64,000 nucleotides of DNA, taken from NCBI RefSeq assembly GCF_029867415.1, contig NW_026705389.1, positions 1 to 64,000 on the forward strand. Direction: 5' to 3'. Source of the stretch: Vicia villosa (taxonomy: Eukaryota; Streptophyta; Magnoliopsida; Fabales; Fabaceae). Position 1 is the first letter of the stretch; the number at the start of each line of letters is the position of its first letter. Both the position numbers and the translations under genes were made by a program. Shown in pieces: positions 5,888-59,507 of the stretch. The notes beneath the pieces were generated by a model that did no database searches, was not told where the DNA came from, and was given only the letters and a program-made list of their open reading frames with translations.

Positions 5888-6036
5888 AACTTACCCCCCG
5901 AACTCAAAATCTTTTTAAAGGTCTTTTCCTGTTCTTTTAGCCTTTCCTAAAAATTGGATAAAATAAAAGTCGGTGGCGACTCATGCTTAACCGCGACATT
6001 TTCAATTATAAAAGTCAGTTCACCGTATTACAGAAC

Positions 6037-6054
6037 TGGCGACTCTGCTGGGGA
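6037..6054 (+). promoter_or_regulatory. Primer binding site (tRNA-Arg type)
   Basis: TGGCGACTCTGCTGGGGA starts 5 bp after the LTR end. It is complementary to the 3' end of a plant tRNA-Arg, the primer type reported for Ogre elements. The copy after LTR 2 is at 14412-14429. Confidence 0.8.
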
Positions 6055-7896: not shown

Positions 7897-7957
7897 ACCA
7901 GTTCCACAACAACGACGCAAGCCAGATGCACCTAAGCGTCAATTCACCAAAATCAAT

Positions 7958-10147: not shown

Positions 10148-10535
10148 GAGTTAAGTCGATACCTTTGACGGTTCCTTAACGACCTACTTCAAATTTAAGT
10201 CGATACCTTTGACGGTTCCTTAATGATCTACTTTCAGAATTAAGTCGATACCTTTGACGGTTCCTTAATCCACTTCAGAGTTAAGTCGATACCTTTGACG
10301 GTGCCTTAACGATATACTTCAGAGTTAAGTCGACACCTTTGACGGTTCCTTAACGACACACTTCAGATATAAGTCGACACCTTTGACGGTTCCTTATACA
10401 ATCTATCTGCATATCTGAGTCGATACCTTTGACGGTGCCTCAACAATATGCTTCAACTTTAAGTCGATACCTTTGACGGTTCCTTAAATAACCCAACACA
10501 GATTTGAGTCGATACCTTTGACGGTTCCTCAACAT
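10148..10535 (+). repeat. Nine-copy hairpin array (AAGTCGATACCTTTGACGGT core)
   Basis: Nine units of 41-46 bp share the core RAGTCGAYACCTTTGACGGTKCCTY. The bases flanking the core form stems that change in step: GTTAAG/CTTAAC (copies 1, 4, 5), TTAAG/CTTAA (2), ATTAAG/CTTAAT (3), TATAAG/CTTATA (6), TGAG/CTCA (7), TTTAAG/CTTAAA (8) and TTGAG/CTCAA (9). An inner ACC/GGT pair may close a 6-nt loop. The array lies about 225 bp before the polypurine tract. It is absent from the second unit, where this part is deleted. Confidence 0.9.
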
Positions 10536-10750
10536 TCAAAAAAGGGAAGACAACAAAAGCAGAAATTTTGCAACAATCCACACTCCAAACATAATCTAAT
10601 GCATGATGGCATCTTCAAGCCCATCTCCGACAAAGGTCTCTACTTCAGCAAGGGCAAATTTCTTGGTATTCTAGTGTTCAATCATCTTCCACCTTCATTT
10701 AGCGACTGGCATACAAACCACTCTACATCTTCAGGTTTAAGATAATTGAA

Positions 10751-10760
10751 CAGGGGCAGC
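10751..10760 (+). promoter_or_regulatory. Polypurine tract before LTR 2
   Basis: CAGGGGCAGC directly precedes the LTR start at 10761. The outer Ogre has the similar TAGGGGCATC before its 3' LTR. This G-rich tract would prime plus-strand synthesis. Confidence 0.6.
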
Positions 10761-13700: not shown

Positions 13701-14407
13701 GCCTCGGTAAAAAATGATGATTTGTCCCAATTGCTAAGGTATCCTCGCATGATGCCTAAAAAGATTAATGACTATTATATCCTTCCCTTAGACTACCTGC
13801 CCTCTTTATGGCAAGGGACAGTCTTATGGCGAACGATTATTCGATGACCCTTAAACATCCAATTGAAAGACTCCCTACCCTTTATGGTATGGATAGATCC
13901 TTTCGCCCGAAAAGCTAAAAGAACGAATTTTCAAACTTAGGGTAGTTGCTACTAATTGCTTGCTCTAAATTCAAAAACTATTTTCTCACTCTTTTCAAAT
14001 CAAGTTCAAAAAGACTACGCTTATTTACAAGCTAAAGTTCTTCTTCGAAAATCATTTCAAATTCAAAATACTTTTCACACCTCCTTTCAAAACAATTTCA
14101 AACAAGGCTACGCTTATTTACAAGCTAAAGTCCTTAACGAAATCTTTTACTATTCGCACACTGCTTTTCAAACAAATCAAATATTTTTCAAAGTGAGCTA
14201 AGCAATTAAGAGCCCATGGATAACCATGGATGCAAAGGGTGCCTTACACCTTCCCTTTGCATAACTTACCCCCCGAACTCAAAATCTTTTTAAAGGTCTT
14301 TTCCTGTTCTTTTAGCCTTTCCTAAAAATTGGATAAAATAAAAGTCGGTGGCGACTCATGCTTAACCGCGACATTTTCAATTATAAAAGTCAGTTCACCG
14401 TATTACA
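10761..14407 (+). repeat. Long terminal repeat 2 of nested element
   Basis: The 3647-bp copy is identical to LTR 1 as far as I can see, except for two extra T in the T-run after the tRNA-like module (12427 onward). It is followed by a second PBS and a second internal region, so it serves as 3' LTR of unit one and 5' LTR of unit two. Confidence 0.94.
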
Positions 14408-14429
14408 GAACTGGCGACTCTGCTGGGGA

Positions 14430-17400
14430 TGCTTTCGAATAAAAGAGGGGTTACCTTAGAGTTAGGATCACTTTAAATTTGTTTGATTTGTTTGCTTTAT
14501 CTTTAAAGGTTGTTTTGGGTATTCTGCTGTGTGAAAGATCCTACACCCGGATCTAGTGTACCTTAGGTATGTGGCATGAGACCAGGGAGGCTGTACGACA
14601 TGTATCGTTATGGTTGAACTGGTGGCCACCGTTAGTGCGACGCTTTGGTTTGTCCTGATGGCCCTTGAATACGATCGAGGAGACATTTGGCTATCGCGTG
14701 GTGTCATAAGCACTAATTCGCCCTTAGAACCTTAGTTGAACTTGACTTTGGCCTATAGGAAGTAGCGAGATAGCTGGCTTTGGGTTCCTGACTGAAGCCG
14801 GTTGATACTCGATGCTACACTCATTGAGATTGGACTCTAGGGATGCTTTTGGCTGGCCGATCGAGTGCCATGTTGAGACAATGCCCGCGAGAAAGATCAG
14901 GGATATGAGCACCATAGAACCCGATTACTATTCTAGGACAGGTTGAACCAACTTAACTTCAGTGGGGAGGGTACTTACCTACGAACTTCACGCAAACCTT
15001 TAAACCTAAGGACACTTGTGTGACTTGTCTGTGCTTTCCACTAACCCTTTGGTTTTCTTGCAGGTTTTCCTGTGGGACTCAGTTGTCTTTACCATCTTAC
15101 ACATTGCCTGATGCATTGCATAACATCATGACACCATGACATCATACGCATAACATGATCTAACTAACCATTTCAAGGATCTTAGGGATTTAGGGCGCAC
15201 AATTTCAGGTGCTCTGATCAAGGACTGAATTCCTAATCAAGGGGCAAGAGGATTTTCCTCTGGCCACATACCTTCCGATTCAGAGACACTGTACCTATTA
15301 AGGGGCAAGAGGATTTATTTTTCTCTAGCCATACTCTTTCAAATTCAGAAGTATCCCGAATCAGAGGCTATGACCCACTCGATATGGTGAGCTTGATTCT
15401 CAAAGAAAGACGTTCAAAGACAAAGTTCATATTTTTTCAGACAAAGACGCGACCAAATCATTTTCTAATGTTGCTAACTAAAATCCTAAAGATCCGTGAA
15501 AAGATTGCATTTGCATTCATAACATCACATAAAAACTAATCTCACCTTTCAGGTCGACCAACTGGTCATGCAACTATCATCAACAAAATTAAATGCATCC
15601 CAAAGTATGGTCTTCCAGATATGGTCTAATATACGACTCGTTCTGGTATCCTTCATCAGATATGGTCTAATGTATGGCTCGTTCTGATTGTTCTCCTTCA
15701 GATATGGTTTAATGAATAACTCGTTCTGGTTTCCTACTTCCAGATATGGTCTAATGTACGACTCGTTCTGGTATCCTTCATCAGATATGGTCTAATGTAT
15801 GGCTCGTTCTGATTGTTCTCCTTCAGATATGGTTTAATGAATAACTCGTTCTGGTTTCCTACTTCCAGATATGGTCTAATCTACGACTCGTTCTAGTATC
15901 CTTCATCAGATATGGTCTAATGTATGGCTCGTTCTGATTGTTCTCCTTCAGATATGGTTTAATGAATAACTCGTTTTGATGTCCTACTTCCAGATGTGGT
16001 CTAATGTATGACCCATTCTGGCATTCCTCTTCAGATATGGTTTAATGAATAACTCGTTCTGATGCCCTACGCCAGATACATTCCGGAAGCTCGAACCCCG
16101 GACATTCTGAAAGTTCCAATCAGATGAACATTCTGGAAGCTTGATCTCTAGACTTCTGAAACATTACAATCAAGATATACATTTCGGAAGCTGGAACCCC
16201 CGACATTCTGAAACACTCTTATCAGATGCACATTCCGGAAGCTCGAACCCCGGATACTCTGAATCTCTACACCAGTTCCACAACAACGACGCAAGCCAGA
16301 TGCACCTAAGCGTCAATTCACCAAAATTAATATGTCGTCGGCTCAGACCTTACAACATCCGTTGAAGATCAGATTGATTACTCTGAGGGATGCTCTTAAG
16401 AATTCTAACACCTCTGGATATAAACTCAATGCGAGGTGCGCGCACCATTCCAACATTCTTGGACATTACAAAAACAATTGCTGGACACTGAGGAATAAGA
16501 TTCAAGATCTAATCGATAACGGGGAAATCAAATTCAACCCTCCCGAAACTCCTGTGGTGATCACCGCTCCTATGCCTAGTCATGACGAGACAGATTGACG
16601 TCTGGACGGACGAACTTTTGGATCATTAGATCTACTTTCATTTGCATGTTTCTTTTCTGTTTGTTTAAATGTTCGAATTATGATAGACATTATCTGTTTT
16701 AATAATCATCATCAGTGCATTGCATATGTTTGTCTTGAGTAAATTATTTCGCTATCACTCATTCTAAACTGCATCTTTACTTTGCATATGCTTTATGGTA
16801 CTCAACTCCTGCTAAAGTTGTATACCTTTTGAGGGAGCATGACGAAAATGATACCGCAACCTCATACAGTATGCTTTTGAGCGGACTATGCTGACGATGT
16901 ACAGGCATTGTTTCAATTCCTAAACAGTGGAGATATAAGGATGTTAATCCCTCGTCAACCCCTTTGAGCCTAAGAAGTAGAAGTTTCTTTCTTGTACTAA
17001 TTAAAACCCTTAATCATAACCTGGGGCAGGGTAGTTCTCAGTTAATTTGGCTGTGCATTCTATTTTAAGAGAATCATTCAGTACACCTTTCAACAAAGGT
17101 TTCAATCACAAGAGTTCATCCGCACACATCAAAGAAGTGTTGGAGAAGTCAATCAAAAGCCAATGATGGTTCATCAATCATTAAGTAAGGCAGTCAATAT
17201 CTTTCAAAAAAAAAATGATGACGAAAAACATATATACAAAGAAAAGCCTGCTAAGTCAAAAACCAAAAAGATGACTTAGGCAAAAATCAAGGCATCCCGC
17301 TGACTGTAAGCTCAAAATAGACAGTTCAGGCAAAAGTTAGGGATATCAAAATAAAAAATGAAAAAAGAAGAGTCAATAAATTCCTGAACAACACAATGTT

Positions 17401-17908
17401 GTGACTACCAAAAGGAAGAAGTGACTGCCATCTCAAAAAATTCTCTTTGCTTGTGAACCATCATCATTATCAAAGGTGCAAATCCAAAAGTCTCCTGGAA
17501 ACGGAATGCATAAGTCGAATTAACTGAGCTTAGGATTGAAGATCATCACGAAGAAGGGTGGGTACAATCAAATTTTGAGCCTTTATCCTTTGTTTCTTAA
17601 ACCGTGAACCAAGCCACGTTACCACCCTTGAAAGTCCTAACTGAAGCATGGTTAGTTCGAAAGCATACTGTCACAACAAAGGTATCCTGACTCCTTAAGG
17701 TTTATCACAAATGCTGAGTCGATATTTCATTTTTACAAACATCACGTTGTTACAAATATCATGTTTTACAAATAACACACTTTTACATCTCTGGTTTTAA
17801 TGTTTTTCAAAAAACTCAAGACAGACATATACATTGCATCTCATGAATTCATTATTAAGCATATTCTGCTACATAATTTCAAATGTTAGCATCAGAAAGA
17901 ACTTGCAC
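14430..17908 (+). other. Second internal region of nested element, 3'-truncated
   Basis: It repeats 6055-9534 almost exactly, including the 125-bp array (15615-16072), the 50-bp array (16073-16270), the gag remnant and the two hairpins (17251-17329). It breaks off after ACTTGCAC at 17908. About 1.2 kb of internal 3' sequence, including the nine-copy hairpin array and the polypurine tract, is missing. Confidence 0.9.
16332..16598 (+). CDS. Second copy of gag C-terminal remnant
   Basis: This frame encodes the same 88 residues as the copy in unit one (7958-8224), including the C-x2-H-x5-H-x4-C knuckle. It is part of the tandem duplication of the nested element. The only nearby difference is one C-to-T change at about 16327, just before the start. 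It is probably a non-functional relic. Confidence 0.55.
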   Translation: MSSAQTLQHPLKIRLITLRDALKNSNTSGYKLNARCAHHSNILGHYKNNCWTLRNKIQDLIDNGEIKFNPPETPVVITAPMPSHDETD

Positions 17909-17940
17909 TATTATGTAAATGTTAGCATCTCATGAATTCA
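17909..17940 (+). other. Templated filler at a deletion junction
   Basis: Thirty-two bases join the truncated internal region to the truncated LTR. They split into three pieces that each match nearby sequence: cactattatgtaa (as at about 18011-18022), aaatgttagcatc (17881-17893) and gcatctcatgaattca (17836-17851). Each switch occurs at a few shared bases. Confidence 0.85.
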
Positions 17941-19048
17941 CTAAACCCTATTTTTATTACTTATGTCAAACCCTATTTAGGGATCCGCTGGTTTCTTATT
18001 CCCTTCCCCCACTATTATGTAACTGTTTACTGGTTGTATTGTTTGGCCTTGAAGGCACTTAAATTATATTATTATATTATTATTGTGTGGTTAGTAATGT
18101 AGGGAGTGACAAGATTAATTAATCAAACGTTAGATCACTAACAAGATAAAATATTCGAATACAACCACGTGATTGTTGCACCCACACACCTTTAGGATAA
18201 TCCCTCTGGTTGCCTTTGTTGCCTGTTGCCTTGTTGCCTTTAAGTGTACTAAATAGTCAAAGTCCCTCGATTCCGAGGATACCTAAAGCAAAACAAAATG
18301 TTGCCCTAAGTTCATTATCATCAATTCTGCCCCTCGAAGCTGCCTCGGTAAAAAATGATGATTTGTCCCAATTGCTAAGGTATCCTCGCATGATGCCTAA
18401 AAAGATTAATGACTATTATATCCTTCCCTTAGACTACCTGCCCTCTTTATGGCAAGGGACAGTCTTATGGCGAACGATTATTCGATGACCCTTAAACATC
18501 CAATTGAAAGACTCCCTACCCTTTATGGTATGGATAGATCCTTTCGCCCGAAAAGCTAAAAGAACGAAATTTCAAACTTAGGGTAGTTGCTACTAATTGC
18601 TTGCTCTAAATTCAAAAACTATTTTCTCACTCTTTTCAAATCAAGTTCAAAAAGACTACGCTTATTTACAAGCTAAAGTTCTTCTTCGAAAATCATTTCA
18701 AATTCAAAATACTTTTCACACCTCCTTTCAAAACAATTTCAAACAAGGCTACGCTTATTTACAAGCTAAAGTCCTTAACGAAATCTTTTACTATTCGCAC
18801 ACTGCTTTTCAAACAAATCAAATATTTTTCAAAGTGAGCTAAGCAATTAAGAGCCCATGGATAACCATGGATGCAAAGGGTGCCTTACACCTTCCCTTTG
18901 CATAACTTACCCCCCGAACTCAAAATCTTTTTAAAGGTCTTTTCCTGTTCTTTTAGCCTTTCCTAAAAATTGGATAAAATAAAAGTCGGTGGCGACTCAT
19001 GCTTAACCGCGACATTTTCAATTATAAAAGTCAGTTCACCGTATTACA
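17941..19048 (+). repeat. Truncated long terminal repeat 3 of nested element
   Basis: It corresponds to 4925-6032 of LTR 1, so the first 2537 bp are missing. It begins within the telomere-like CTAAACCCTA stretch and ends normally with ATTACA before the target duplication. One substitution relative to LTR 1 is visible at about 18568 (gaaattt versus gaatttt). Its last 50 bases are read in frame with the downstream Ogre pol, which creates a spurious start at 18999. Confidence 0.93.
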
Positions 19049-19053
19049 CCGCT
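19049..19053 (+). repeat. Target-site duplication, right copy (CCGCT)
   Basis: It follows the LTR end ATTACA and repeats 2383-2387. After it the outer Ogre reading frame resumes. Confidence 0.95.
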
Positions 19054-21140
19054 ACTCCATGCTCGAGAAGACGTGTTGTGCTTTGGCCTGGGCTGCCAAG
19101 CGTCTCCGCCAGTACATGATTCGACATACTACTTACTTGATCTCTCATATGGATCCAATCAAGTACATATTTGAGAAGCCTGCTTTAACTGGGAGAATTG
19201 CCCGTTGGCAGATGTTGTTATCAGAATACGACATTGAGTATCACGCACAGAAAGCCGTGAAAGGAAGCATTCTAGCTGAGCACCTGGCTCACCACCCACT
19301 CAATGGTCATGAATCAACCAGTTTCGATTTTCCGGACGAGGACGTCATGTACCTCAAGATGAAAGATTACGACGAGCCACTACCAGACGAAGGACCTGAG
19401 ATAGGATCCCAGTGGGGCTTAATCTTTGACGGAGCTGTCAATGCTTATGGACGAGGAATTGGGGCAATCATTGTTACACCTCAGGGTACCCAAATTCCAT
19501 TTACTGCCAGATTAACTTTCAAATGCACAAACAATGAGGCCGAATATGAAGCTTGCATCATGGGTCTCGAAGAAGCCATGGATCTAAGAATCAAACACTT
19601 GGATGTATACGGAGATTCTGCTTTGGTCATCAATCAAATCAAAGGAGAATGGGAAACACGCCAACCAGGGCTAATTCCTTACAAAGACTACGCGAGAAGA
19701 TTGTTACCATTCTTCGACAGGGTAGATTTTCATCACATTCCTCGTGAAGAAAACAATTTGGCTGATGCATTAGCCACACTCTCTTCCATGATTAGGATAA
19801 ATCATTGGAATGACATTCCTCGGATCGATGTTATGCGCCTGGATAGGCCCGCTCATGTGTTCACAGTAGAAGCAATCATCGACGACAAACCGTGGTATCA
19901 CGATATCAAGAACTTTCTTCAAAAGCAAGAGTACCCTCTTGGGGCGTCAAAGAAAGATAGAAAGACTGTGAGAAAGTTAGCTTGTAGATTCTTCCTAAAT
20001 GAAGATGTTCTGTACAAGAGAAACTTCGACATGGTTCTGCTCAGATGCGTTGACAGAAAAGAAGCAGAAATACTCATGAGAGAAATACATGAAGGTTCCT
20101 TTGGTACTCACACCAATGGACATACCATGACAAGGAAAATACTGAGAGCAGGATATTATTGGCTGACGATGGAGTCAGATTGCTTCCAGTACGCAAAGAG
20201 GTGTCACAAATGCCAGATCTACGCCGATAGAATTCATGTGCCACCATCTCTTCTCAACATACTCTCTTCCCCTTGGCCTTTCTCCATGTGGGGAATCGAC
20301 ATGATTGGAATGATCGAACCAAAAGCGTCCAACGGACATCGCTTCATCTTGGTAGCCATAGACTATTTTACCAAATGGGTTGAAGCAGCTTCATATGCAA
20401 ACGTTACAAGACAAGTTGTCGTCAAGTTTATCAAGAATCACATCATATGTCGCTACGGCGTTCCTAGCAAGATAATCACTGACAATGGGTCAAATTTGAA
20501 TAACAAAATGATGAAGGAGCTTTGTGAAGAATTCAAGATCGAACATCACAACTCATCTCCTTACAGACCAAAGATGAATGGAGCTGTAGGAGCAGCTAAC
20601 AAAAACATCAAGAAAATCATTCAGAAGATGGTCATCACTTACAAGGATTGGCACGAAATGCTCCCGTATGCTCTTCACGGTTACCGTACATCAGTACGTA
20701 CTTCGACTGGAGCAACTCCTTTCTCCCTTGTATATGGCATGGAAGCAGTCCTACCTATAGAGGTTGAGATTCCATTAATGAGAGTTTTGATGGAGGCAAA
20801 ATTAACAGAAGCCGAGTGGTGTCAAAGCAGATTCGATGAATTGAACTTAATCGAAGAAAAGCGCATGACAGCTTTATGCCACGGACAGCTATATCAACAA
20901 AGAATGAAGAAAGCTTTCGACAAAAAGGTTCGACCTCGCACAATCAAAGAAGGCGACCTTGTACTCAAAAAGATTCAATCTCTTCTCACAGATTCGAGAG
21001 GGAAATGGACTCCCAATTATGACGGCCCCTACGTGGTCAAGAGAGCTTTCTCAGGAGGAGCCTTAATACTCACGACTATGGATGGAGAAGAATTCACCCG
21101 TCCTGTGAACGTCGACGCAGTCAAGAAATACTTCGCCTAA
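19054..21140 (+). pseudogene. Ogre RNase H, archaeal-type RNase H and integrase (3' half of split pol)
   Basis: This continues the pol frame broken at 2387. After the rest of the RT-linked RNase H comes a second RNase H with Asp (19428), Glu (19536), Asp (19614) and Asp (19764), the additional archaeal-type RNase H known for Tat elements. The integrase has an HHCC zinc region (about 20090-20220), then catalytic Asp at 20298 and Asp at 20481. The third position, exactly 35 residues on, is GGA (20589-20591), encoding Gly instead of the invariant Glu. The end (TAA at 21138-21140) has a GPYVV-type C-terminal domain and no chromodomain. No other stop or frameshift is visible. A longer open frame from 18999 includes 18 codons of the nested LTR and is an artefact of the insertion. 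The enzyme set is therefore split, and the integrase is probably dead. Confidence 0.93.
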
Positions 21141-21155
21141 ATAATCAAAAGAACA

Positions 21156-21316
21156 GCTCGCTAAGTTGAAAACTCGCAAAGAGCGGCTTAGGCAAAAAAG
21201 AGCGTCTCGGTGAATCGAAAACCCGAAAGGGCGATTCAGGCAAAAATTAGAGACATAAAAAAAATATACATTAATCAATCCCGGTAGACTTAAAACCCGA
21301 AAGGGGTAGTTTACGC
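21156..21316 (+). other. Three nested hairpins after the integrase stop
   Basis: Hairpin 1 pairs CTAAG (21161) with CTTAG (21187), with inner CTC-GCAAA-GAG. Hairpin 2 pairs TGAATCG (21211-21217) with CGATTCA (21232-21238), with inner CCC-GAAA-GGG. Hairpin 3 pairs GTAGACT (21284-21290) with AGTTTAC (21308-21314, one G-U), again with CCC-GAAA-GGG. GAAA is a GNRA tetraloop. Each hairpin is followed by GCAAAA. The nested and third elements have the same arrangement with other stem sequences. Confidence 0.8.
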
Positions 21317-22080
21317 AAAAGTTAGGGATATATGGCAAGTAACTGTGTTTAGGACAAACTTGATCATTCAAAATCCATAGCGGAGTGTTCATTAGCAGTA
21401 GGTCATCTTCTCAAAGCACGAATACAGCGCAACTCGGAGTGGAAGGGAAAGATAACGGTCGTCACGTTTCATCGTAGCCCTTTTCCCGAAAATTACCAAT
21501 TTCCAACTTTGTAAATACTCCATGGAATCAAGCATTTGGCTGATTACCATTCCATATATAATAATTTGAGCCTTGTGCTTTTCCTTTGCAATCTAGTCTT
21601 TTTCAGTTTCTTGAAATGCATTTTAAGTTTAAACAGTCAATTTCTTGAAACAAATGTTTTCATAAAATAAAAATGAATTTACTTGCAAAAATAAAGGTGA
21701 AATTTCTTTCTGAGGTTTACAAACAATAGGAAGAATGCAAACAGTTGCTCCGAGAACGGTTGAGACTCCGGGAACCAAGATTTCCCCATGAGGTCGCTTT
21801 GCGAACATCTCCCGATGACGGATCTTTACTTCAATTCATATTACTTACTTCGGACAGCGGACAACTGATAACCCGGTATTCCCAAGAGAGTTCGAACTAC
21901 AAGAAGAGGACATCTTCTGATCAACAAGAATTCAAGTCGTATCATAGGATTTTACATCTGCGACAATTCTATTCACGTTCACTTTACATTTTATCATTGT
22001 CATAATATTCATGCATACATTACATCATAACTGCATAGTCGAATCAGGCTTTGATCCTGTGAATGCCTAAGTCATTGAGG
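21317..22080 (+). other. 3' untranslated region of outer Ogre, no gene seen
   Basis: The region is noncoding. It contains a segment related to the noncoding DNA of the nested element but otherwise shows no repeat or ORF that I can support. Confidence 0.6.
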
Positions 22081-22920
22081 CATGAACTCAAGTTTCCCCT
22101 GCAAGTTCCAGAGAAACTTTTTCCTTCGAGACAACAGTTCATACACAAGGATCTCCCCAAGCAAGTCAACAAATGGTTGTCTCCCTCAAGGAAATAGTTT
22201 GTTCACTTTTGGAATTCCTCAGCCGAGAATCTCCCGCAGAGCGACATTCGACAGTCTTCTTCAGATAAGATAGTCTGCTTCACATTTTGGAATTACCTAG
22301 AGGTTTGGTATTTCCCCAGCAGGGTCAAGAGGTGCCACTTTTTGGTTAAAAATTTTTTTTTTCAGAATCTCCCAGCAGATCGACAAATGATTCCCCAGCG
22401 GAGTCAGTGAATGATAGTCTTCGTCCAGAAGATAGTTCAGATTCCCCAACAAAGTCAGCAAATGGCAGTCTCTTTCAGCAGAAGACAGTTTGCTCACTTT
22501 CTATCATAACAGAGTCAGCAAATGGCAGTCTCTTTCAGCAGAAGACAGTTTGCTCACTTTCTATCACAACAAAGTCAGCAAATGGCAGTCTCTTTCAGCA
22601 GAAGACAGTTTGCTCACTTTCTTTCATGACAGGGTCGACAAATGGCAGTCTCTCCCAGTAGAAGACAGTTTGCTCCCCTAGCAATTGGCAAATGGCAGTC
22701 TTTTCCCAAGAAAAGACAGTTTGTCTGATAAATACTCAAGAGATCGACAAATGGCAGTTTCTTCGAACAGTTTGTCTGTTTCTGGGATGTTTAACTCCCC
22801 ACAGAGTCGATGAATGGCAGTTTTCCTCTTAGGAAAACAGTTCGTTGATTCCCTAGGCATCAGTCGACGAATGGCAGTTTCCACCCCGAAAACAGTTCGT
22901 CCGCCTTCAAACAAAGTCAT
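22081..22920 (+). repeat. Hairpin array with AATGGCAGTC core (outer Ogre 3' region)
   Basis: Three 60-bp units at 22457, 22517 and 22577 are followed by more diverged ones up to 22900. The outer stems are AGCAAA/TTTGCT (three units), GGCAAA/TTTGTC (one wobble), GACAAA/TTTGTC, TCGATGAA/TTCGTTGA (two wobbles) and GACGAA/TTCGTC. Inner stems also vary in step: GTCTTTTC/GAAAAGAC and GTTTTCCT/AGGAAAAC. A related unit with AACAAA/TTTGTT lies at about 22167-22196. The unit near 22632 keeps only four pairs. Confidence 0.85.
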
Positions 22921-22982
22921 TAGCCCCTCAAAAGATCATGAGGCCATATGACATTCTTTCAAAGACGTCAAGTCAAAAGGGA

Positions 22983-23220
22983 AGATGGTGAAGTTTCTTT
23001 ACAGCCGTCAAATGGCATCTTATCTCCAAGCGCTGGTAAGAAGTTTGACGAGGAAACAAACCTTTGAAGTTTCTTTACAGCCGTCAAATGGCATCTTATC
23101 TCCAAGCGCTGATAAGAAGTTTGACGAGGAAACAAACCTTTGAAGTTTCTTTATTTACCATCAAATGGCGTCTCGTCTCCAAGTGCTGATGAGAAGTTTG
23201 ATGAGGAAACAAACCGTTGG
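22983..23220 (+). repeat. Three double-stem hairpin repeats (outer Ogre 3' region)
   Basis: Three 76-77-bp units begin at about 23006, 23082 and 23159. Outer stems are CGTCAAA/TTTGACG in the first two and CATCAAA/TTTGATG in the third. Inner stems are TCTTATC/GGTAAGA, TCTTATC/GATAAGA and TCTCGTC/GATGAGA. All pairs are kept, one or two of them as G-U. Confidence 0.88.
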
Positions 23221-23575
23221 AAATTTTCTCTTTATCTGAGATATTGTCCAAACACAACCGAGACCAGTTTCGAGATATGGACATCCGAAACGAGGAGAGG
23301 TTGTTTACCTTTTTCTAAGTATCAACACTTAGTTAAAGAAGATGGATTACGCATCCAACATTGCCATCCATTCACCAGAATCCACATCAAGTATTTCTGC
23401 AGGAGTTTGTCTCCTCATCCCCCGCCAAGCGCGACAACGGGATCAAGTCATGCAAAGACTATGTCAGTTACAACATCTCAGGAGCGCCCAAAATTCGGGC
23501 ATTCTTTGATATTTAAGTCTCTTTTACGCAGGAGAGATCGAGATATCAATCTCTCTCCCTCCAGATAAAAGAAAC

Positions 23576-23590
23576 TTAAATAGGGGCATC
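23576..23590 (+). promoter_or_regulatory. Polypurine tract before 3' LTR
   Basis: The purine-rich AAATAGGGGCATC directly precedes the LTR start at 23591. It is comparable to CAGGGGCAGC before 10761. Confidence 0.6.
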
Positions 23591-25130
23591 TGTCATACCC
23601 TAATTTTTGACCCCCCTGAGATGGCATATCTTCAGGATTTTTCATCAGGTCAAGACAAGTTCCCAGAGCAGTCACTTCTCCATCTGGTATCCAATCGAGG
23701 ATGCTCAAAGACAAGAAAGTTCAGGCAAAGGATCAATCAATACAAGGATTAGTCCCTAATACAATCATGAGGCTCAAAGACTTCACTTTTCTCATCTATG
23801 ATTGATTAGACATCCAGTCATATGAGTACAGGTTTACTCAGGTCACCAGACTAGGGTTTTGAGCCTATCAAGGACTAAAATCAGGGATCACTTTTGGGAA
23901 ACCCTAAAAAGCCTCAGGGAACCATTCAAAGACATCAATCATCTTCAAATAACTCATATTACAAGATCTACTGGACATCACACTTCAATTCAAAGTCTAC
24001 AGTCATTATTTTCACATGGTCGACAAATTAGGGTTTTGACCTAATTCACCAAGATAGTTGACTTTTAATCAGGGCATGAATCCAAAACTCAAGACATGAT
24101 TCAAGAATCTCTACTACCTCAATATAATCCATTTACATCATTCATTTGAGGAAAAGATCTTGTTTCTACACAAAAGCCCAAAAATTCACTTTGTTAGGAA
24201 AAAGTCAACTGTGAAGGATCATCATTGACTTTTAAGGTTTTTGGTCAAAAAATGACTTTCAAAGATCAATATCATCAATATATGGATGTCAAAGTCATTT
24301 GACCAAAGAAATTCAAAGAAATTCATCAAGGAGCGAAAAGTCGGGAATTAGGGTTTTTGAAGGCATGGTGAGAACTCAAAATTTCACCTACACAACTCAA
24401 AAAACTTCCAACATGAAAGTTGTAGATCTTGCAAAATAAAACAACATCTTACAAAGGAACTTTTTTCAAAAGATCAACCATTTATGAAGTTTTGGAAATT
24501 TTGAAGTTTAGGTCATAAACACTTAGAAATTTTTCTAAGTGTTTTAACCTAGTTTTCATCCAACTTTGGGCTCATTTTTCACAAATTTCCCAAATGATTC
24601 TGAAGAAGACATAAAATAATGATTTGAAGTAGATGTTTAGGGCTTTCCAAATTGTGTTCAACCTTCTCCAAATTCAATTTGAGCTAGGAGTTATGCTTGT
24701 TCAAAGTTGGCCTCATGAAGTGAAATTATAGGTCATGTACAATTTGAAACTTTGCAATTTTGTGCATTTTGCTTCACTAAATGATGCTACACGACCTCTA
24801 ATACATCTGAAGACATGTCATACATTCAAATTCATCATTGCATAAGGATTAGAGAAGATTCCCAAAAACAAAGGCATGTGATTATGTAATGATTGCATTT
24901 TTGAATTTATGGCAAATGGTGAATCATCAAGGAATCTTGCTCTAAGCCAATTAGAACTCTCCTCTGAATCAGAAATGTTCCCTAAGATCATGCAAGATCA
25001 ATGGTTGGGGAAGCTAGCCCGAAAATGCATCATTGCATTTGGGATATTTTCAAACTTTCTTCATGGCTAAGAAACCAAACTCACCTCATTAAGCAAGCTT
25101 ACTATGATCAATTACTCTGAACCAATTCCC

Positions 25131-25138
25131 TATAAATA
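25131..25138 (+). promoter_or_regulatory. LTR TATA box of outer Ogre
   Basis: TATAAATA in the context CCCTATAAATAGAGGCCTCA lies 1.54 kb into the LTR. A closely similar box occurs at 58263-58270 in the third element. Confidence 0.7.
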
Positions 25139-26084
25139 GAGGCCTCATTCTCATTCAGAAACCACACCAAAGCAACTCAATTCCTTGCTTTCTCTTTCTC
25201 TTCTCATGCTTATTGTTTTTCAAAGTTCTTTGGCAAGAAGAATCGTTTTCTTCAAACCAGAGCTCATCTTTGGAAAGTAAGCATTCTAACATCTCAAGGG
25301 AGGTCATTTGAGGTGATCCAAGCACCTGGATCACTTCTGTAAGTGGAGGAACACCATTGTTGCTCTCACTTTGGAGCATTTGCAGTTGGAGGTCCATGGA
25401 GTAATTCAGGAGGTTCTGAGCCAAGCCAATCATCCAGGCACATTCCTCAGGTCATAGTGAAGCTAACCAGATGGCTGCAGCTCATCTGTAACTCAAGAAT
25501 CAACACCCTCCATGTTCACTTGAAGCTGAAATCGAGGGAGGACCATAGAGCAATTCAGGAGGATTCAAGCTCCAACAAGCATTCAGTTAGCATCATTGAG
25601 TCTCAGGGAAGCTATTGAGATCATTCATTCAAGCCCAGGTGCTCTCAATCATCCTCACGACCTCCATTTTCAGAGGTAAGTTCCTGAACCTCACTTCTCT
25701 AATTTAAGTACTCTTTGTGAAATAGCTCGATTCTATCTTGTTCAGCATCATCAGAGGATTGAAAACCCTCTATCATCATCCATTTATCTTGCAGTATAGT
25801 CATTTAATTTGATTTTGAAATTTTAGGGTTCTTCACGATTTCTGGTAAATTAGTTAGATGTAGTTAATATTAATTCATGTTAGTTACATATTTAGAATCG
25901 TGAGTGAATTTAGAGCAAGTTTCATGTTTACATCATTGCAAATGGTTGAGAGTTGAGAGAGTTCAGAAATTTGAATTGATGGAGCTTGAGGTTGAAGACG
26001 AAGATGGAGGGTGGCGCCATTTTTCAAATCTCTGAGCAAAGTTTGTTTTATTTTTAATGATAGGCATTCCCTTAACGACTGAAC

Positions 26085-26170
26085 AAACTTGCCCTAGTGG
26101 CCTCCCATACGCCCTTAGTATCATCATGCCTCAAGTCTGGGGTTCGAATCCCCCTCGCCCCAGACTTTTT
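26085..26170 (+). other. tRNA-like Pol III module A in LTR
   Basis: An A-box-like TGCCCTAGTGG (26090-26100), a perfect B box GGTTCGAATCC (26141-26151) in a GGGG/CCCC T-stem, and a T5 run (26166-26170) follow one another with tRNA-gene spacing. No full cloverleaf is evident. Confidence 0.5.
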
Positions 26171-26245
26171 GATTCTTTTATTTTTCAAGGATTTGCAACT
26201 TGTTTTGAAACATAACCAAATGAAGGCAAGTCACTATCACCACAC

Positions 26246-26330
26246 GCGCGTTGGCTCAGTGGTGTTTGTTTTGAGTGTGTAACCTAGAGGGCGTGGGTTC
26301 AAACCCTCCAAGGGCCAAAACTATTTTTTT
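26246..26330 (+). other. tRNA-like Pol III module B in LTR
   Basis: A perfect A box TGGCTCAGTGG (26252-26262), a perfect B box GGTTCAAACC (26296-26305) and a T7 run (26324-26330) lie 80 bp after module A. Acceptor-stem pairing is not clear, so it is called tRNA-like. Confidence 0.55.
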
Positions 26331-26880
26331 ACACACAATTTCTTTCATTTTCTCACAAACTTCACATATTTATTTAACCTATCAAATTAATTTATTTTCA
26401 CTTCATTTTTCACACACTTATCATTTAATATACCTATTTTGGGAATAAATAAAAAAATCATAAAAATATTATTTATTTCATATATTTTTTATTAGGTTTA
26501 AAATAGTATGTTTTAAGTGTTTTCTTAAATACTTTAAATACATATATTCACTTTGTTTTAACCTAATCATTTTGTAAATAAAGTTTATGATAAAACCCTA
26601 ATTGTTTAGGTCTTAATTAAGTAAAAATCTTTATTTTTACTTTGATTAAGTTGACTTTTGTCAATATTCAAAACTGTTTTCAATCTCTAATTAAACGGAC
26701 GATTAAGGTTTTCAAACAACAAAACCTTGTATCATTCCAAATCATTGTCAAATTGCTTTTACACCAGTACTGCAAAGTACTGGGCCTCTAATAGAGTGTA
26801 AGTCCCAAAAACCTTCTCTTCTTAGCTTGTTTTCAAAACTGTATTTTCAAAATCTTCTTTCTGTTTTCAAAATATTCTTC
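26331..26880 (+). other. AT-rich LTR segment, nothing else seen
   Basis: This is low-complexity AT-rich sequence within the outer LTR, with no ORF or repeat that I can support. Confidence 0.6.
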
Positions 26881-26881
26881 T

Positions 26882-27374
26882 GGTATTTGAAGGGCATTAT
26901 TCCCGGTGAAACTCTTCAGATACCTATGTGACCTTTGTCCATCTTCACTTCTTCTGTTTTCAAAAATCATTAACTGTTTATAATAAATATTCAACTGTTA
27001 TCAACAAAACAACAAAAATTACTGTTGAGGCTCTGTACATACTTCTTCAATGGCCTCCACTCCATCCAGGTTAGGCTTTACAAGCTTTCAATTTACAGTC
27101 TTTATTTAAATTACTGTCAAATATAAACTGTCCATATATTAGTTTAGAACTACGTTTGAGTATAAACCTTAGGACAGTTAAACTATATATATATTATAGG
27201 AATATGGCCTAGGATTGAGAATGTCTTCCCGGTGAAGGCTCTTTCCTAATTAGAGATCTGTAGTTCAAACCCCCAAGATGAATTATTCCCGGTGAAACAT
27301 CTTGGTAAAAACCTTAGAATCCAAATAATAGGACACATCCACCCAAAGAGGAATTATTCCCGGTGAAACCTCTT
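26882..27374 (+). repeat. Hairpin family with 17-nt loop ATTATTCCCGGTGAAA
   Basis: Three hairpins share a 17-nt loop (NATTATTCCCGGTGAAA) and differ in stem. At 26882-26924 GGTATTTGAAGGG pairs with CTCTTCAGATACC (13 pairs, two G-U). At 27273-27305 CCAAGATG pairs with CATCTTGG. At 27346-27374 AAGAGG pairs with CCTCTT. A weaker relative with a CTTCCCGGTGAAGG core is at about 27212-27247. The third element has the first type at about 60076-60114 with one mismatch. Confidence 0.9.
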
Positions 27375-27424
27375 ACCCATTTGCTTAGAGCCAAAATAAG
27401 TTCAAAACTACATAAGCTTTCTCT

Positions 27425-29168
27425 TGTGCTATAACAAGGACCCTCGATTAGCCTCCTCTTGGGCTTTGTACAAGGACCCACAGGCTTCTTAAAAGCATTT
27501 CCAGCTTCCTCTTGAGCTTGTATACAAGGACCCATCAGGTTTCTTATAAACATAGGAACAGGTCTTTAGTCACCTTTTAGCCTACCCTGGTGAGTTTCTT
27601 CCAATTTAAACCAGACTTTAAACAAGTTAAGTTTGTCTCAATTTTGCATTGAGTACACCTTTTGGAATGAGAGACATGGATAGTCTCTGTCACCCTTATC
27701 TTCATCAATCTTCCTTAGCAGAGTCTAGGATCCATGTTTGATCATCCTCAGCATTGAGTCAGCCTTCATCTTGGGCTTTAAACAAGAAGTCTCCACTAGA
27801 TAATCTTTCTGCCATTCATTTTAACAAATTCCCTGGAAAGGGTTAGCCTCCAACATCTGTCTAAAATAAAATCCCTGGAAAGGGTTAGCCTCCAACATCT
27901 GTCTAAAATAAAATCCCTGGAAAGGGTTAGCTTCCACACATTCCTTCATTTCAATAAAACCCCTGGAAAGGGTTAGCCTCCAAAGTCAATTAATAAAAAG
28001 TCAAAAAATAAAGATTCATTTCTCTTAGGAGATAATTTCCCCAAAAGAGTCAAAACCCCTGGAAAGGGTCAGCCTCCAAAAACATGATAAAAGTCAGTCT
28101 TTTAATAGACAAATTCACCAGCTGAGTCAAAATCCCTGGAAAGGGTTAGCTTCCAAAGAAAAACAGTCTTTTTAATCTCCAGTAGAGTCAAAACCAACAA
28201 AAACAGTTAGCCTCAACCTTGGGCTTCATACAGGGCACCAAACAATAAAACTCCCCTGTCAAGAGTCAGCCTCAACCTTGGGCATTGTACAAGGCAGATA
28301 ATAGAGTCTCCCCAGTGAGTTCTTCATCATTCAGTAGCCACAACCTTGGGCTTTGTACAAGGCAGATAAACCATACTTTCATGTGTCAAAGATTCCTAAC
28401 ACTTAGGATCTTTCCCCATATAGTCATCCATACTCAATTCATTTATTTAAGAGTCCGCCACAACCTTGGGCTTTGTACAAGGCAGAAAATAATGTTTTTC
28501 ATAGCTAGAGTCAGCCTCAACCTTGGGCTTTGTACAAGGCACATAAATAGAGTCTCCCTCAGTAGAGTCAGCCTCAATTCTGGGCTTTGTACAGAACACC
28601 AAATAAAATCCATCAAATAAACACTCTCCAAATAGAGTCAGCCTCAATTCTGGGCTTTGTACAGAACACTAAAATACCCTGTAATTAATCCCCAGTGGAG
28701 TTATCATTTCAATAAGTCAATAAAATCAATCAAAAAGCCTCAAGCTTGGGCCTCATACAAGCCAGCTAAAGTCAAATCTTTTATACAGTAGATAGACATA
28801 GCTTATCTCTATAGAGAGATATTTTTACTACTCTACCACATTCAAACAAACAAACATTTCAAATTTCAATTTCAATCAAAGTCTCCCATTTAGGACTCTG
28901 AAAGACATGCTCTGGCACATCCCCAGACTTGTACACTTTCCCTAATTTGGACGAGCATCTTTCTTTCATTTAAGAGGCATCTGACTGGCATACTTGCACA
29001 CACAAGTAAGGTCCCCCTCTTGAATGAAATGAATTCAGTTATTCTGTCACTCTTTCAAAATGTTTGTGGTAGAATAGTACAAATACCTCTCTGTAAATAT
29101 GATTTCATGTCTCTTTACTGTAAACAGAGATTTAATTCCAAGCTTCAACCTTGAGCTTCAAGCAAGGC
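27425..29168 (+). repeat. Hairpin family with GGGCTTTGTA loop
   Basis: About thirteen units related to CCTTGGGCTTTGTACAAGG are scattered here. The stems vary in step: CCTTG/CAAGG (most), TCTTG/CAAGA (about 27769), TTCTG/CAGAA (28578-28596 and about 28647), GCTTG/CAAGC (28744-28762), and CCTTG/CAGGG or TCTTG/CAAGG with one wobble pair. They are interspersed with AGAGTCAGCCTCAA spacers. Confidence 0.88.
27831..28160 (+). repeat. Tandem CCCTGGAAAGGGTTAGC repeats
   Basis: Six copies of CCCTGGAAAGGGTTAGCCTCC occur at irregular 41-100 bp spacing. CCCT-GGAA-AGGG forms a 4-bp stem closed by a GNRA-type loop. Here the stem does not vary, so there is no covariation evidence for this family. Confidence 0.8.
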
Positions 29169-29426
29169 ACAAAAAAACAATTAATTTCCCTAGTTAGTTC
29201 CCCGAACTACATTAAGCTCTGACTTCCACTAGGGATATGTAGGCATGAGGTTCACAAGGAATCTCACCGAGCTAATAAAATACCAAAAATAGTCAGTCTG
29301 TCTGTCTGTCTGTCTTTTCAAATCAAATCAATTCCTTCTCCTAACACAAAGGAGAAACTTTCCCAATCATTAGCAGCAAACACAATCACAATGACACAGA
29401 GAAGGTTCCTGTAGAGTACTACAGAT

Positions 29427-29455
29427 ATGTAGGGTGTTTAAACACTTCCCTATGT
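29427..29455 (+). other. Terminal LTR hairpin of outer Ogre
   Basis: ATGTAGGG pairs with CCCTATGT through eight pairs, two of them G-U, just before TATAACCGACC. It is the positional counterpart of the hairpins at 5855 and 60222. Confidence 0.6.
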
Positions 29456-29710
29456 ATAACCGACCTCCCGGACTCCAGAATTTCTAGTCTAGGTGAAATC
29501 CCCACACTTAGCAAACTCCTAGGGTTTAGTTGAGATCTTTTTTCCCCTTTCCTACTCGTAGGACAATAAGAAAGTTCGTGTGATATCGTAGGAAGAACTG
29601 AAATAAAATTCATCCCGCCACGGGCGCATTCTCCTTCCAAATTTCGCGTGAAGGGTCTAGCGTGCCGTCCTCCCAAGTGAAACGGGGAGGTAAAAGAAAA
29701 CGACACCACA

Positions 29711-32387
29711 GCAGTCTTCACATCCATATGTTCCAGTTCTAGGTCAAACTATGCCACCATGGCAAGAAACATTCGAATGGACCTATGCTTCACAACAAAA
29801 GAAAATACATCATTGAAGTCGACACCTTCTTTCTGAGTGAAACCCCTTGCAACTAACCTTGCCTTGTATCTTTTTGACGTCACTCCTTCAATTCCTTCCT
29901 TAACTTTGAAAATCCATTTACAGCTGACTAACCTTGCCCCAGCAGGTTTCTTGATCAGTTCCCAAGTGTGATTATCATGAAGAGATTTCATCTCATCATT
30001 CATGGCCTTCAGTCATTCGGTCTTATTTCGACTCCTCATAACTTCCTTATAGTCTCTAGGTTCTTCGTCTAGAACCTCACTTGCAGAGATTAAGGAATAA
30101 GCAATAAGATATGCATACCCAAGTCTCTAAGGTGGCTTGATGACTCTTCTCGACCTATCTCTCGACAATAGGTAGTCATCGACAGTTTCCTCAACTTCCT
30201 TAGCATCTTCTGCTTCTTCTTCGACTTCATCTGGAATATGCAATTCAGCATCAACTTGCTCCACCTCAACAAGAATCTCTACCTGTTCCAGCTCTTCTGC
30301 ACTTCGACCATCATCATCACCAGTTTTCTTGAAATCCATCTCAGCTTCATTCAAAACTACATCTCGACTGGTGATACACCTCTTGTGACCTGGCTCTATG
30401 CACCATAGCCTATAAGCTTTGACTCCTTCAGGATATCCCATGAACATGCATTTAAGAGCTCTAGGTTCGAACTTGTCTTGCCTAATGTGAGCATAGGTTA
30501 TGCAGCCAAATACTCTCAGTATGTTGAGATCTGGTGGATGTCCCGACCAAAATTCTTAAGGTGTCTTCATATCTAACGCTGTTGAAGGACATGTGTTTAT
30601 CAGATATGTTGCTGTCGAAATAGCCTCAGCCCAAAACACCTTCTTTAATCCAGCACTAGTCAACATGCATCTGACTCTCTCCAAAATAGTTCGATTAAAC
30701 CTTTCAGCCAAACCATTTTGTTGTGGAGTACCTGCAGTATTTTTATGCCTTGCAATACCAGAGGCAACACAAAAACTGTCGAATGCCTCATTGCAAAATT
30801 CAAGGCCATTATCGGTTCTCAACCTCTTGACCTTCCTGCCAGTCTGATTTTCACCCAGAGTCTTCCAACTTTTGAAATTCTCAAAAGTTTCATCCTTAGT
30901 CTTCTGGATGAATACCCATAACTTCCTGGAATAATCATCAACTATGGATAGAAAATACCTTGCTCCTGAATATGATAGACACCTTGCAGGCCCCCAAAGA
31001 TCAGCATGGATGTAATCAAGGGGTCCATGAGTTCTTTGTTTGCCTTTGTTGAACTTCACTCTGCAAGATTTTCCATGTACACGGGGTTCAAAAAACTTCA
31101 GCTTTTCGACTTTGTCTCCACCAAGCAGATTTTGTTTCTCTAATTCGACCAGACCTCTTTCACTGACATGGCCCAATCTCATGTGTCAGATTTTTGTCTT
31201 CGACAAAGGTTTCGTGGATGCAACATTTGTCAAACCACTTACAACTTCAGCCTCAAGGATATACAAGCCTTGTCTCTTCACGCCTCTTAAGACTTCCTTC
31301 GACCCCTTCATGACTCTTAGGATACTTTTTTCTCCTTGGAAAACATATCATTTCTTGTCGAATTCACCAAGAGAAAGTAGATTTCTCTTCAAATCAGGAA
31401 CATACCTAACTTCAGTCAGCAACCTTATTTACTCGTCATGGAGCTTGAATCTCACATATCCAACACCTGCAATCTTGCAAGCTTTGTTGTTTCCCAGCAG
31501 TATTGATCCACCATCTTGATCACATAATTCCTCGAACAAGTCTTTGTTTGGAGTCATATACCGAGTGCAACCTGAATCCATAATCCACTCCTTCCTAGAG
31601 TCACTGCTCGAAACCACAAAGACATCAGATGATTCAAAATTATCTTGAACAATGGCTGCATTGCCATTATCTTTACCTCCATGATCTTTAAGGCGTTCAG
31701 GGAACACCTTTCTTGTGTGACCCTCCTTCTTGCAATGATAGCATCGAATGTCGGATGCTTCGCCGCTGTAAGACTTCGACTGGCTTTTGCCATTCTTCAT
31801 GTCAAACTTGCCATCCTTTCATAAGAATTTGCCCTTAACGGCCGAACCTTCACCAACAGTCGAAGGTTTATGCTCCTTTCGTTCGTTGAAGTCCTTAGAA
31901 TACATGGCTGATTGAAATTCTTCAAAGGTCAGGGACTCCCTTCCATACAAGAGAGTTTCTTTGAAGTGAGCATGTGATCGAGGAAAAGCGAACAATAGTA
32001 ACAGCGCTTGATCTTCATCATAGATCTTCACATCAATATTTTCAAGATCAAGAATCAGCTTATTGAACATATCCAACTGCTCAGCCAACACTTTATTTTC
32101 AATCATCTTGAATTAATACAAAGCTTGCTTCAGGTAGAGTCGATTTACCAGCGATTTGGTCATGTACAAACTTTCAAGTTTCGTCCAAGGCTCAACAGAA
32201 TTGCGCTGCGTGCTTTCTCGATCATAGTCGTCTTCTCCGCTGCCGTTAATGCAGCATTCATGGCTGCCTCTCCCTTCAACGCTTCCAAGCAACCCTGCTG
32301 AACCAATAGGGCTTTCATCTTCAAGCGCCACAGGCCGAAATCATTCACTCTGGTGAACTTTTCAATCTTATACTTTGTTGAAGGCAT
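29711..32387 (-). pseudogene. copia gag-pro-int-RT polyprotein, degenerate and truncated
   Basis: The gag starts at the ATG at 32387-32385 (MPSTKYKIEKFTRVNDFGLW). It shifts frame near 32170 and has a stop near 32110. The gag zinc knuckle (about 31746-31700) reads CYHCKKEGHTRKVF, with the last Cys changed to Phe. The protease motif WIMDSGCTRYMTP is at about 31587-31549. The pre-integrase segment has lost one zinc-binding Cys. The integrase core (about 31080-30600) keeps its Asp, Asp and Glu in LDYIHADLWGP, LRTDNGLEF and PQQNGLAERFNR. An acidic linker (about 30400-30130) leads to the RT start (WELIKKPAGARLVSCKWIFK, about 29970-29910). In-frame stops between these blocks make it non-functional. 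Confidence 0.9.
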
Positions 32388-33337: not shown

Positions 33338-33574
33338 GGTTAAATATATTTTTAGTTTTTATAAAATTATCACTTTTGACTTTTAGTCCCAATAAAAAAT
33401 TATTGACATTTAGTCATCTATAAAATTACTTTTGCACGCATTTTTAGTCGATGTATAGAGACTAAAATTGCGTGCAAAAGTAATTTTATAGGGGACTAAA
33501 AGTCAATAATTTTTTTTATAGTGACTAAAAGTCAAAATTGAGATATTTATAAAGACCAACAAGATATTTAACCC
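33338..33574. mobile_element. MITE with GGTTAAATAT terminal inverted repeats
   Basis: The 237-bp element begins GGTTAAATATATTTTTAG and ends AAGATATTTAACCC. Nearly the whole length is a long imperfect palindrome with repeated GACTTTTAGTC blocks and an inner 22-bp arm around ACGCATTTTTAGTC. The GGTTAAATAT family with GTCCCTATAAA-type arms is common in legumes and is usually placed with Mutator-like MITEs. A clear 9-bp target duplication is not visible. Confidence 0.8.
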
Positions 33575-59500: not shown

Positions 59501-59507
59501 CTCTTTG

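Follow-up and report, generated by a model that had tools for sequence, protein, structure and literature searches.

Why would hairpins in the LTR of an Ogre retrotransposon keep their loop while their stems change? The question is raised by three stem-loops in the window, which is the whole 64-kb stretch of DNA analysed here and the scope of all our evidence; they had been predicted to combine a common 17-nt loop with unrelated, perfectly pairing stems. These hairpins turn out to be part of a larger collection in the non-coding regions of Ogre-lineage elements, in which stems change pair by pair and loops or internal loops stay nearly constant (Table 1).

Hairpins with a common loop

The 16-mer ATTATTCCCGGTGAAA has four exact matches in the whole window, all on the + strand, at 26896, 27282, 27353 and 60093. 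The predicted sharing of a 17-nt loop by three hairpins is borne out, and their loops differ in the first base only. The description of the stems held in part. All of them pair, and those of hairpins 2 and 3 are fully Watson-Crick, but hairpin 1 includes two G-U pairs. The stems also differ in sequence and yet pair, as the word unrelated implied, but hairpins 2 and 3, 71 nt apart, share 91% identity across 33 nt, and among their six innermost pairs a single, compensated one is different. A fourth copy expected in the third element is present, but it has one broken pair and is not independent, the block around it being 91% identical to 26830-26964 over 138 nt. Since hairpin 4 is a homologue of hairpin 1 and hairpins 2 and 3 are near-copies, we count two or three independent stems, not four.

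Table 1. Positions and structures of hairpins and hairpin arrays in the window
Feature	Position	Strand	Location	Structure	Energy (kcal/mol)	z
F1 hairpin 1	26882-26924	+	Outer LTR	13-bp stem including 2 G-U; 17-nt loop CATTATTCCCGGTGAAA	-17.3	-4.34
F1 hairpin 2	27273-27305	+	Outer LTR	8 Watson-Crick bp; 17-nt loop AATTATTCCCGGTGAAA	-10.2	-2.72
F1 hairpin 3	27346-27374	+	Outer LTR	6 Watson-Crick bp; 17-nt loop AATTATTCCCGGTGAAA	-6.5	-0.90
F1 hairpin 4	60079-60121	+	LTR of third element	Homologue of hairpin 1; one A-G stem mismatch
F1 variant	27210-27248	+	Outer LTR	Core TTCCCGGTGAAG at 27226; GTCTTC/GAAGGC closes CCGGT; outer stems	-12.8	-1.87
F2 array	27422-29167	+	Outer LTR	13 units; 5-bp covarying stem; GGCTTTGTA-like loop, 9 nt in 11 of 13
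F4/F5 array	22168-23202	+	Outer 3'UTR	13 units; outer helix, internal loop TGGCA/AG, inner helix
F6 array	10144-10533	+	Nested element, 5' of its second LTR	9 units; 19-nt loop TCGAYACCTTTGACGGTKC
F7 array	7238-7689	+	Nested element, 3' of its PBS
F10	29409-29424	+	Outer LTR	CTGTAG-AGTA-CTACAG
F9	29425-29457	+	Outer LTR	ATATGTAGGG-13 nt-CCCTATGTAT; abuts F10
F10+F9	60206-60254	+	LTR of third element	About 160 nt 5' of PBS core 60415		-4.79
F10+F9	5839-5887	+	LTR of nested element	About 150 nt 5' of PBS core 6037		-4.77
F10+F9	54246-54293	-	Fourth, degenerate LTR	Found with the model; held out of model building

Stems of at least 6 contiguous bp around a 17-nt loop occur at 4.0e-3 of window positions (3.6e-3 within the LTR stretch) and stems of at least 8 bp at 8.6e-4 (1.6e-3 within the LTR stretch). 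Stems of at least 13 bp occur at 1.6e-5, which is a single window position, namely hairpin 1. The energy of hairpin 3 (z -0.90) is not distinctive. Across the four copies with the long loop, 30 of 32 cells are paired and five of the eight pairs have changed on both sides. This covariation score was reached by none of 500 shuffles and the number of both-side-changed pairs by 12 of 500; sliding the structure by 1-3 columns left 0-1 such pairs. In copies 1-3 the loops are identical at 16-17 of 17 positions and the 30-nt flanks at 5-16 of 30. A covariance model seeded with the four copies gave further matches in the window only from E 1.0 upward.

The 17-nt loop is predicted not to be open; the folds place in it a 2x2 internal loop followed by a short helix rich in G-U pairs, UUAUU/GGUGA. 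Because this inner helix has three G-U pairs, it would form on the sense RNA. The antisense folds of hairpins 1-3 reach -10.1, -9.0 and -5.3 kcal/mol, compared with -17.3, -10.2 and -6.5 for the sense strand. The self-complementary tetramer CCGG is present in all five F1 cores; in the variant it lies within a 5-nt loop, and in the predicted folds of the other copies it is partly paired. A loop-loop contact between RNAs through CCGG is possible, although the folds do not predict it outright. Just 5' of the F1 hairpins in the outer LTR, 26764-26783 forms a perfect 8-bp hairpin, CCAGTACT-GCAA-AGTACTGG, with a GNRA loop.

Host elements and predicted transcript layout

The outer element has its RT at 989-2470 and its RNase H, second RNase H and integrase from 18978 to about 21140 (domain matches in 18978-21137: RT_RNaseH 24-84, RVT_3 158-267, Integrase_H2C2 358-415, rve 434-531). 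A second, archaeal-type RNase H thus sits between RNase H and integrase, which marks an Ogre/Tat element without separating Ogre from Retand, and passages of PMC6317226 give this order for both. The tandem repeats expected in an Ogre/Tat 3'UTR are found in the outer element as well, with a 60-nt unit repeated 3.8 times at 22448-22675 and a 76-nt unit repeated 3.0 times at 22989-23219, both 3' of the integrase. The 3' LTR of the outer element runs on the + strand from 23591, where it starts with TGTCATACCC, to about 29716, an end placed by eye before a Copia fragment; its 5' partner was not found in the window. A comparison of the outer RT with viral contigs returned no relative. Matches to the 16-mer in 13 IMG/VR contigs were not taken as relatives, since by our estimate a collection of that size should contain about as many by chance.

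The outer element is split by a nested Ogre-like element, in which a 7.15-kb block occurs twice (2388-9534 and 10761-17908, 99.9% identical). Another LTR piece follows at 17941-19048, so that 2388-19048 is arranged as a tandem LTR-body-LTR-body-LTR inside the outer RT frame. The nested element has no ORF of at least 150 aa, and five of its frames (77-131 aa) gave no Pfam match.

TATA boxes were identified in the outer LTR (CCCTATAAATAG at 25128) and in the third element (GCCTATAAATAG at 58260). Relative to the start predicted from the box at 25128, F1, F2, F9 and F10 are all downstream, and in both LTRs the F1 hairpin lies about 1.7-1.8 kb beyond the predicted start. No hairpin set lies between LTR start and TATA box. 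From these two boxes we infer that the hairpin-bearing regions are transcribed, and the placement of stem-loops in the RNA leader likewise rests on the TATA-box prediction.

Two minor features accompany this layout. The primer-site core TGGCGACTC is doubled at 5974/6037, 14349/14412 and 60338/60415, the extra copy lying inside the LTR 63-77 nt before the PBS, where GTCG-GTGG-CGAC may form a small hairpin over the LTR-internal core. In the outer LTR, two stretches within 26120-26310 resemble tRNA, with GGGTTCGAATCCCC and GTGGGTTCAAACCC similar to a B box; they were recognized by eye and are perhaps SINE-derived, and ARAGORN called no tRNA in them.

Hairpin sets in LTR, predicted leader and 3'UTR

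Besides F1, at least five sets are built alike, namely F2, F4/F5, F6, F7 and a twin hairpin composed of F10 and F9. This makes at least six sets, in three elements and one held-out LTR. F2, F6 and F7 all lie within tandem arrays.

Stems in the F2 array include CCTTG/CAAGG, TTCTG/CAGAA, GCTTG/CAAGC and TCTTG/CAAGA, and the loops also vary. The two units with loops of 8 and 10 nt were left out of the pair test; in the remaining 11 of 13 units, all 55 cells are paired and three of the five pairs have changed on both sides. None of 500 shuffles reached the covariation score, and 74 of 500 reached the number of both-side-changed pairs. The first base outside the stem is unpaired in 13 of 13 units. 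With E values up to 0.0061, the F2 model matched 12 units on the + strand, of which 11 had served as its seeds. On average the F2 region folds with an ordinary z (-0.24), and we rejected energy alone as a criterion since local folding z over the window does not single out the F1/F2 region. Two other arrays in the LTRs were uninformative on covariation and were discarded: six hairpin units at 27830-28160 (F3, CCCTGGAAAGGG) have an invariant stem, and the hairpin units at 59477-59831 are too uniform. The latter array, in the LTR of the third element, repeats a 43-nt unit with TGTCCATTTGGACA 8.2 times and folds to z -8.5 on the + strand and -6.9 on the - strand.

The F4/F5 units of the outer 3'UTR have an internal loop that reads UGGCA/AG in RNA, with the variants TGGCG, TGGTT or TGATA in three units, and their outer and inner helices both covary. 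F6 stems include GTTAAG/CTTAAC, TATAAG/CTTATA, ATTAAG/CTTAAT and TTTAAG/CTTAAA, and three of the nine units have one or two unpaired positions. The F7 helices vary as GTC/GAC, GTT/AAC and GTC/GGC in the inner part and as CCAGA/TCTGG and TCAGA/TCTGA in the outer part. Near F7, a 51-nt array repeated 3.7 times (F8, 7702-7889) consists of hairpin units whose stems, judged by eye and uncounted, seem changed as well (TCCGG/CCGGA, TCTGG/CTAGA).

A twin hairpin near the LTR end

The twin hairpin was first noticed among weak matches of the F1 model. In the nested element it reads CCATGG-ATAA-CCATGG followed by ATGCAAAGGG-13-CCCTTTGCAT, with identical copies at 14214-14262 and 18855-18903, and in the third element CCATGG-ATAA-CCATGG followed by ATACAAAGGG-13-CCCTTTGTAT. 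The F10 stem is palindromic in these two LTRs and not in the outer LTR, which is a 3' LTR and has no primer-site core behind its twin hairpin. The nested, third and outer twins each fold as drawn on their own. Their position in the LTR is the same, 48 of 48 cells are paired, and five of the 16 pairs have changed on both sides (2 of 500 shuffles); two further pairs changed on one side only, both to G-U.

A model built from these three LTRs found a match in the fourth LTR at 54302-54229 on the - strand, with an E of 4.5e-14. Of the 16 pairs in this copy, 14 are standard (including three G-U) and the other two are C-A and A-A. With this sequence included, the four distinct rows have 62 of 64 cells paired and seven of 16 pairs changed on both sides, in an alignment that was fitted to the structure. 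The loops are of 4 and 13 nt in the three LTRs and of 4 and 12 nt in the aligned fourth. The fourth twin scored 30.1 bits with a sequence-only profile versus 46.7 bits with structure, so that structure adds to the score, the two models being weighted differently. Its own minimum-energy fold is partly different and not distinctive (z -0.91).

Compensated changes and their possible sources

Over nine helices, 26 of 52 stem pairs show a double change from one Watson-Crick pair to another. The 421 cells comprise 390 Watson-Crick, 21 G-U, 4 A-C and 6 other pairs. Compensated changes exceed both the column-shuffle and the slide controls, in sequences that are few and related, so the shuffles overstate the case. 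Tandem units share ancestry and the counts therefore overstate independent events; moreover, F4/F5 and several F2 units were picked out using a motif and visual inspection, which makes their counts non-blind.

We considered whether a few chance hairpins were simply copied along with the repeats. The location of F2, F6 and F7 in arrays and the near-identity of hairpins 2 and 3 fit such copying, as does a loose scan (loop 7-20) that gave 70 hairpin pairs on the + strand and 89 on the - strand, mostly chance; from it only long-loop sets with repeated members were retained. A strict scan, requiring a near-identical loop of at least 9 nt and at least two compensated pairs, found 24 hairpin pairs on the + strand and 12 on the - strand, compared with a mean of 2.9 and a maximum of 6 in 40 shuffles. 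F1, F2 and F6 account for 16 of the 24, and the other 8 look like chance. Because these shuffles do not preserve tandem repeats, part of the excess is copy number. Nevertheless, the excess over the shuffles and the match in the held-out LTR both speak against chance, and copying alone gives no compensated changes, yet half of the stem pairs have them. We consider chance with tandem duplication the least probable of the explanations, and highly improbable.

The types of imperfect pairs bear on the strand at which a constraint would act. Collapsed and read on the sense strand, they are 13 G-U, 4 A-C and 5 other (one-sided p 0.025, two-sided 0.049). The difference is modest; it is drawn from 17 collapsed types, and the stems were trimmed once an initial count had been made. 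G-U is thus tolerated where A-C is not, to a modest degree. The final pair count adds F9, F10 and the inner F4/F5 helix and leaves out the fourth LTR (3 G-U, 1 C-A, 1 A-A). In F7, row 15995 is a duplicate of 7621, and the remaining units of that second copy were left out of the count. Columns beyond the trimmed stem, or Watson-Crick in under half of the rows, were never counted; these are F2 pair 6 (A-C in 12 of 13), F6 pair 7 (A-C in 2 of 9), F4/F5 outer pair 8 (A-C in 3 of 13), F4/F5 inner pair 1 (of 13, A-C in 5, G-U in 1, other in 1) and F1 pair 8 (U-G in 2 of 4).

Folding of the two strands was also compared, in regions grouped after a first look. The sense strand folds better over the 35 windows of the outer 3'UTR (p 0.004) and over the 122 windows of the 3'UTR combined with the transcribed LTR (z -0.69 vs -0.30, p 0.0003). 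No significant strand difference was seen for the transcribed part of the outer LTR by itself (p 0.11), for U3 (p 1.0), the coding parts or the unrelated middle at 29717-57000 (p 0.76), or for either the nested (p 0.63 and 0.40) or the third element (p 0.15 and 0.58). The excess of G-U over A-C and, in part, this strand difference give moderate support to a constraint at the RNA level.

A DNA-level feature would be the opposite case, with cruciforms or paired protein-binding sites in the LTR serving transcription or chromatin. The perfect inverted repeats are able to extrude, the F1 core is centred on CCGG, and palindromic arrays such as the one with TGTCCATTTGGACA exist too. A cruciform, however, has no one-strand G-T preference, whereas G-U outnumbers A-C, and this favours a constraint at the RNA level. 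Hairpin 1, moreover, folds better as sense than as antisense, and the stretch between LTR start and TATA box is empty of hairpin sets. The DNA cruciform offered as one option in the original prediction is disfavoured by the 13 to 4 count and by the better sense folds of hairpins 1-3, and we give a DNA-level role of any kind very little weight.

Mutation bias is a more serious alternative, and one that the original prediction overlooked when it took a constant loop on a covarying stem as the mark of selection; that reading itself is supported and extends to the further sets. When template switching occurs at a short inverted repeat, be it in DNA replication or in reverse transcription, one arm is rewritten from the other, and the stems keep their complementarity as they drift. 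The mechanism has been described and yields multi-base compensated changes (in the portion of PMC8794818 cited here), and a section of PMC7004042 reports illegitimate recombination or abnormal strand transfer as a proposed source of these repeats. Clustered changes are indeed seen, as from CCTTG/CAAGG to TTCTG/CAGAA, where three adjacent pairs differ. The variable F2 loops are compatible with such copying, and a like pattern across sets with unrelated loops would suit a general mutational process. This explanation leaves unaccounted for, however, that the F1 loop outlasts its flanks (16-17 of 17 versus 5-16 of 30) and that the twin hairpin holds its place across separate LTRs. It further predicts as much G-U as A-C, compared with the 13 to 4 counted after some A-C-rich columns were dropped, and no inverted F1 loop was found in the window at up to 3 mismatches. 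Template switching may well have supplied the stem changes; as the whole explanation we think it unlikely, while giving it real weight.

Possible roles of the hairpins

Our leading interpretation, which we hold tentatively and at somewhat under even confidence, is that the hairpins have a putative role as repeated RNA docking sites for Gag. Gag would dock on the repeated hairpins in the RNA of the element, and docked Gag would mark genomic RNA for pairing and packaging. We prefer this interpretation because the sets lie downstream of the TATA box in the LTR, after the nested PBS and in 3'UTRs, and because the nested element, which has no ORF of at least 150 aa, still carries F6, F7 and the twin hairpin, as fits cis signals of an element served in trans. 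Since the loops of different sets are unrelated, one protein reading one loop cannot explain them all. Either Gag would have to read hairpins that differ in the bases they expose, or more than one protein would have to be involved.

We also put forward, with more reserve still, a broader reading in which the fast-evolving repeats of Ogre, which occupy a large part of legume genomes and give rise to satellites there, would be selected arrays of RNA hairpins rather than debris, each with its own loop or internal loop as an 'address' and with stems that turn over through compensated changes, and the twin hairpin would be a lineage-wide RNA module.

The main functional rival to Gag docking is export of intron-containing RNA, in which hairpins in the leader and 3'UTR would recruit host export factors for the full-length transcript, again a putative role. 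The type D retroviral CTE has constant internal loops, which the UGGCA/AG loop of F4/F5 recalls. Ogre RNA contains a partly spliced intron according to passages of PMC6317226, and parts of PMC12786077 describe RTE and MTE from mouse elements. Like the IAP RTE and the MusD MTE (same source, in part), the present sets may be cis-acting structured RNA of a full-length transcript, with constant internal loops in F4/F5. The sets had no match to an Rfam family at E of 1 or less in 21000-29800, and the cited part of PMC12786077 states that RNA export of LTR retrotransposons in plants has never been directly studied. We regard export as rather improbable.

The hairpins can be compared with two further groups of known structures. 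Several stem-loops in or near the predicted leader recall the psi and dimer-initiation stem-loops of retroviruses and the 5' kissing-loop domain of Ty1 (as described in part of PMC5454406). The self-complementary tetramer in the F1 core is a possible further likeness to kissing-loop systems; neither F2 nor F6 has a loop of that type. Unlike psi and the Ty1 domain, which are few and unique 5' hairpins, the sets here are repeated over kilobases of LTR, leader and 3'UTR. ENE motifs have a U-rich internal loop that grips poly(A), and the UGGCA/AG loop is, in contrast, not U-rich. The ENE triple-helix motif of Evade/Copia93, a plant LTR retrotransposon, is an RNA structure that acts in cis (PMC12501189, in part), as the present hairpins would.

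Relation to described Ogre repeats

Tat/Ogre 3'UTRs are known for hypervariable short tandem repeats that seed satellites (Macas et al. 2009, as reported in part of PMC7004042). F4/F5 resemble these in lineage and place, with differing monomers after the integrase, and F6 is probably a 3'UTR tandem repeat of the same type. They differ from the described repeats in that their units are hairpins with compensated stems and that similar sets also occur in the LTR. The words 'hairpin' and 'secondary structure' are absent from the main text of PMC7004042 and PMC4659654, and 'hairpin' and 'palindrom' from PMC6317226; 'hairpin' in the relevant part of PMC3290532 concerns Silene repeats. Among the literature matches listed, in which subscription papers are thinly covered so that novelty is not proven, neither covarying hairpins in Ogre repeats nor any cis-acting RNA element of Ogre was described, and the structures that did appear were of other retroelements; a search for LTR retrotransposon together with stem-loop, covariation and compensatory had no match. 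A text search retrieved TTCCCGGTGAAA only in papers unrelated by title and GGGCTTTGTACAAGG nowhere. The covarying hairpins of Ogre repeats, absent from the matches listed, are the part that would be new here; the 3'UTR tandem repeats of Ogre and the leader stem-loops and kissing loops of retroelements are known.

Ogre elements account for 57% of the repeat-linked variation in genome size in the pea tribe (a figure from part of PMC4659654). If the arrays are selected, repeats called 'hypervariable' have a function, hairpin units are what later turns into satellite DNA, and defined motifs become available for direct tests of how the RNA of a giant plant retrotransposon is packaged, dimerised or exported. 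If they are due to template switching alone, they offer a clean example from nature of structure that arose with no selection, and a warning against equating covariation with function in mobile DNA.

Two other self-complementary stretches were seen in the window. The predicted U3 of the outer LTR contains a palindrome, AAACACTTAGAAATTTTTCTAAGTGTTTT, at 24510-24545, where the folding window at 24501 has z -7.1 and -6.6 on the two strands. At 33338-33573, 236 nt match their own reverse complement at 84%, and this stretch is probably a small inverted-repeat transposon.
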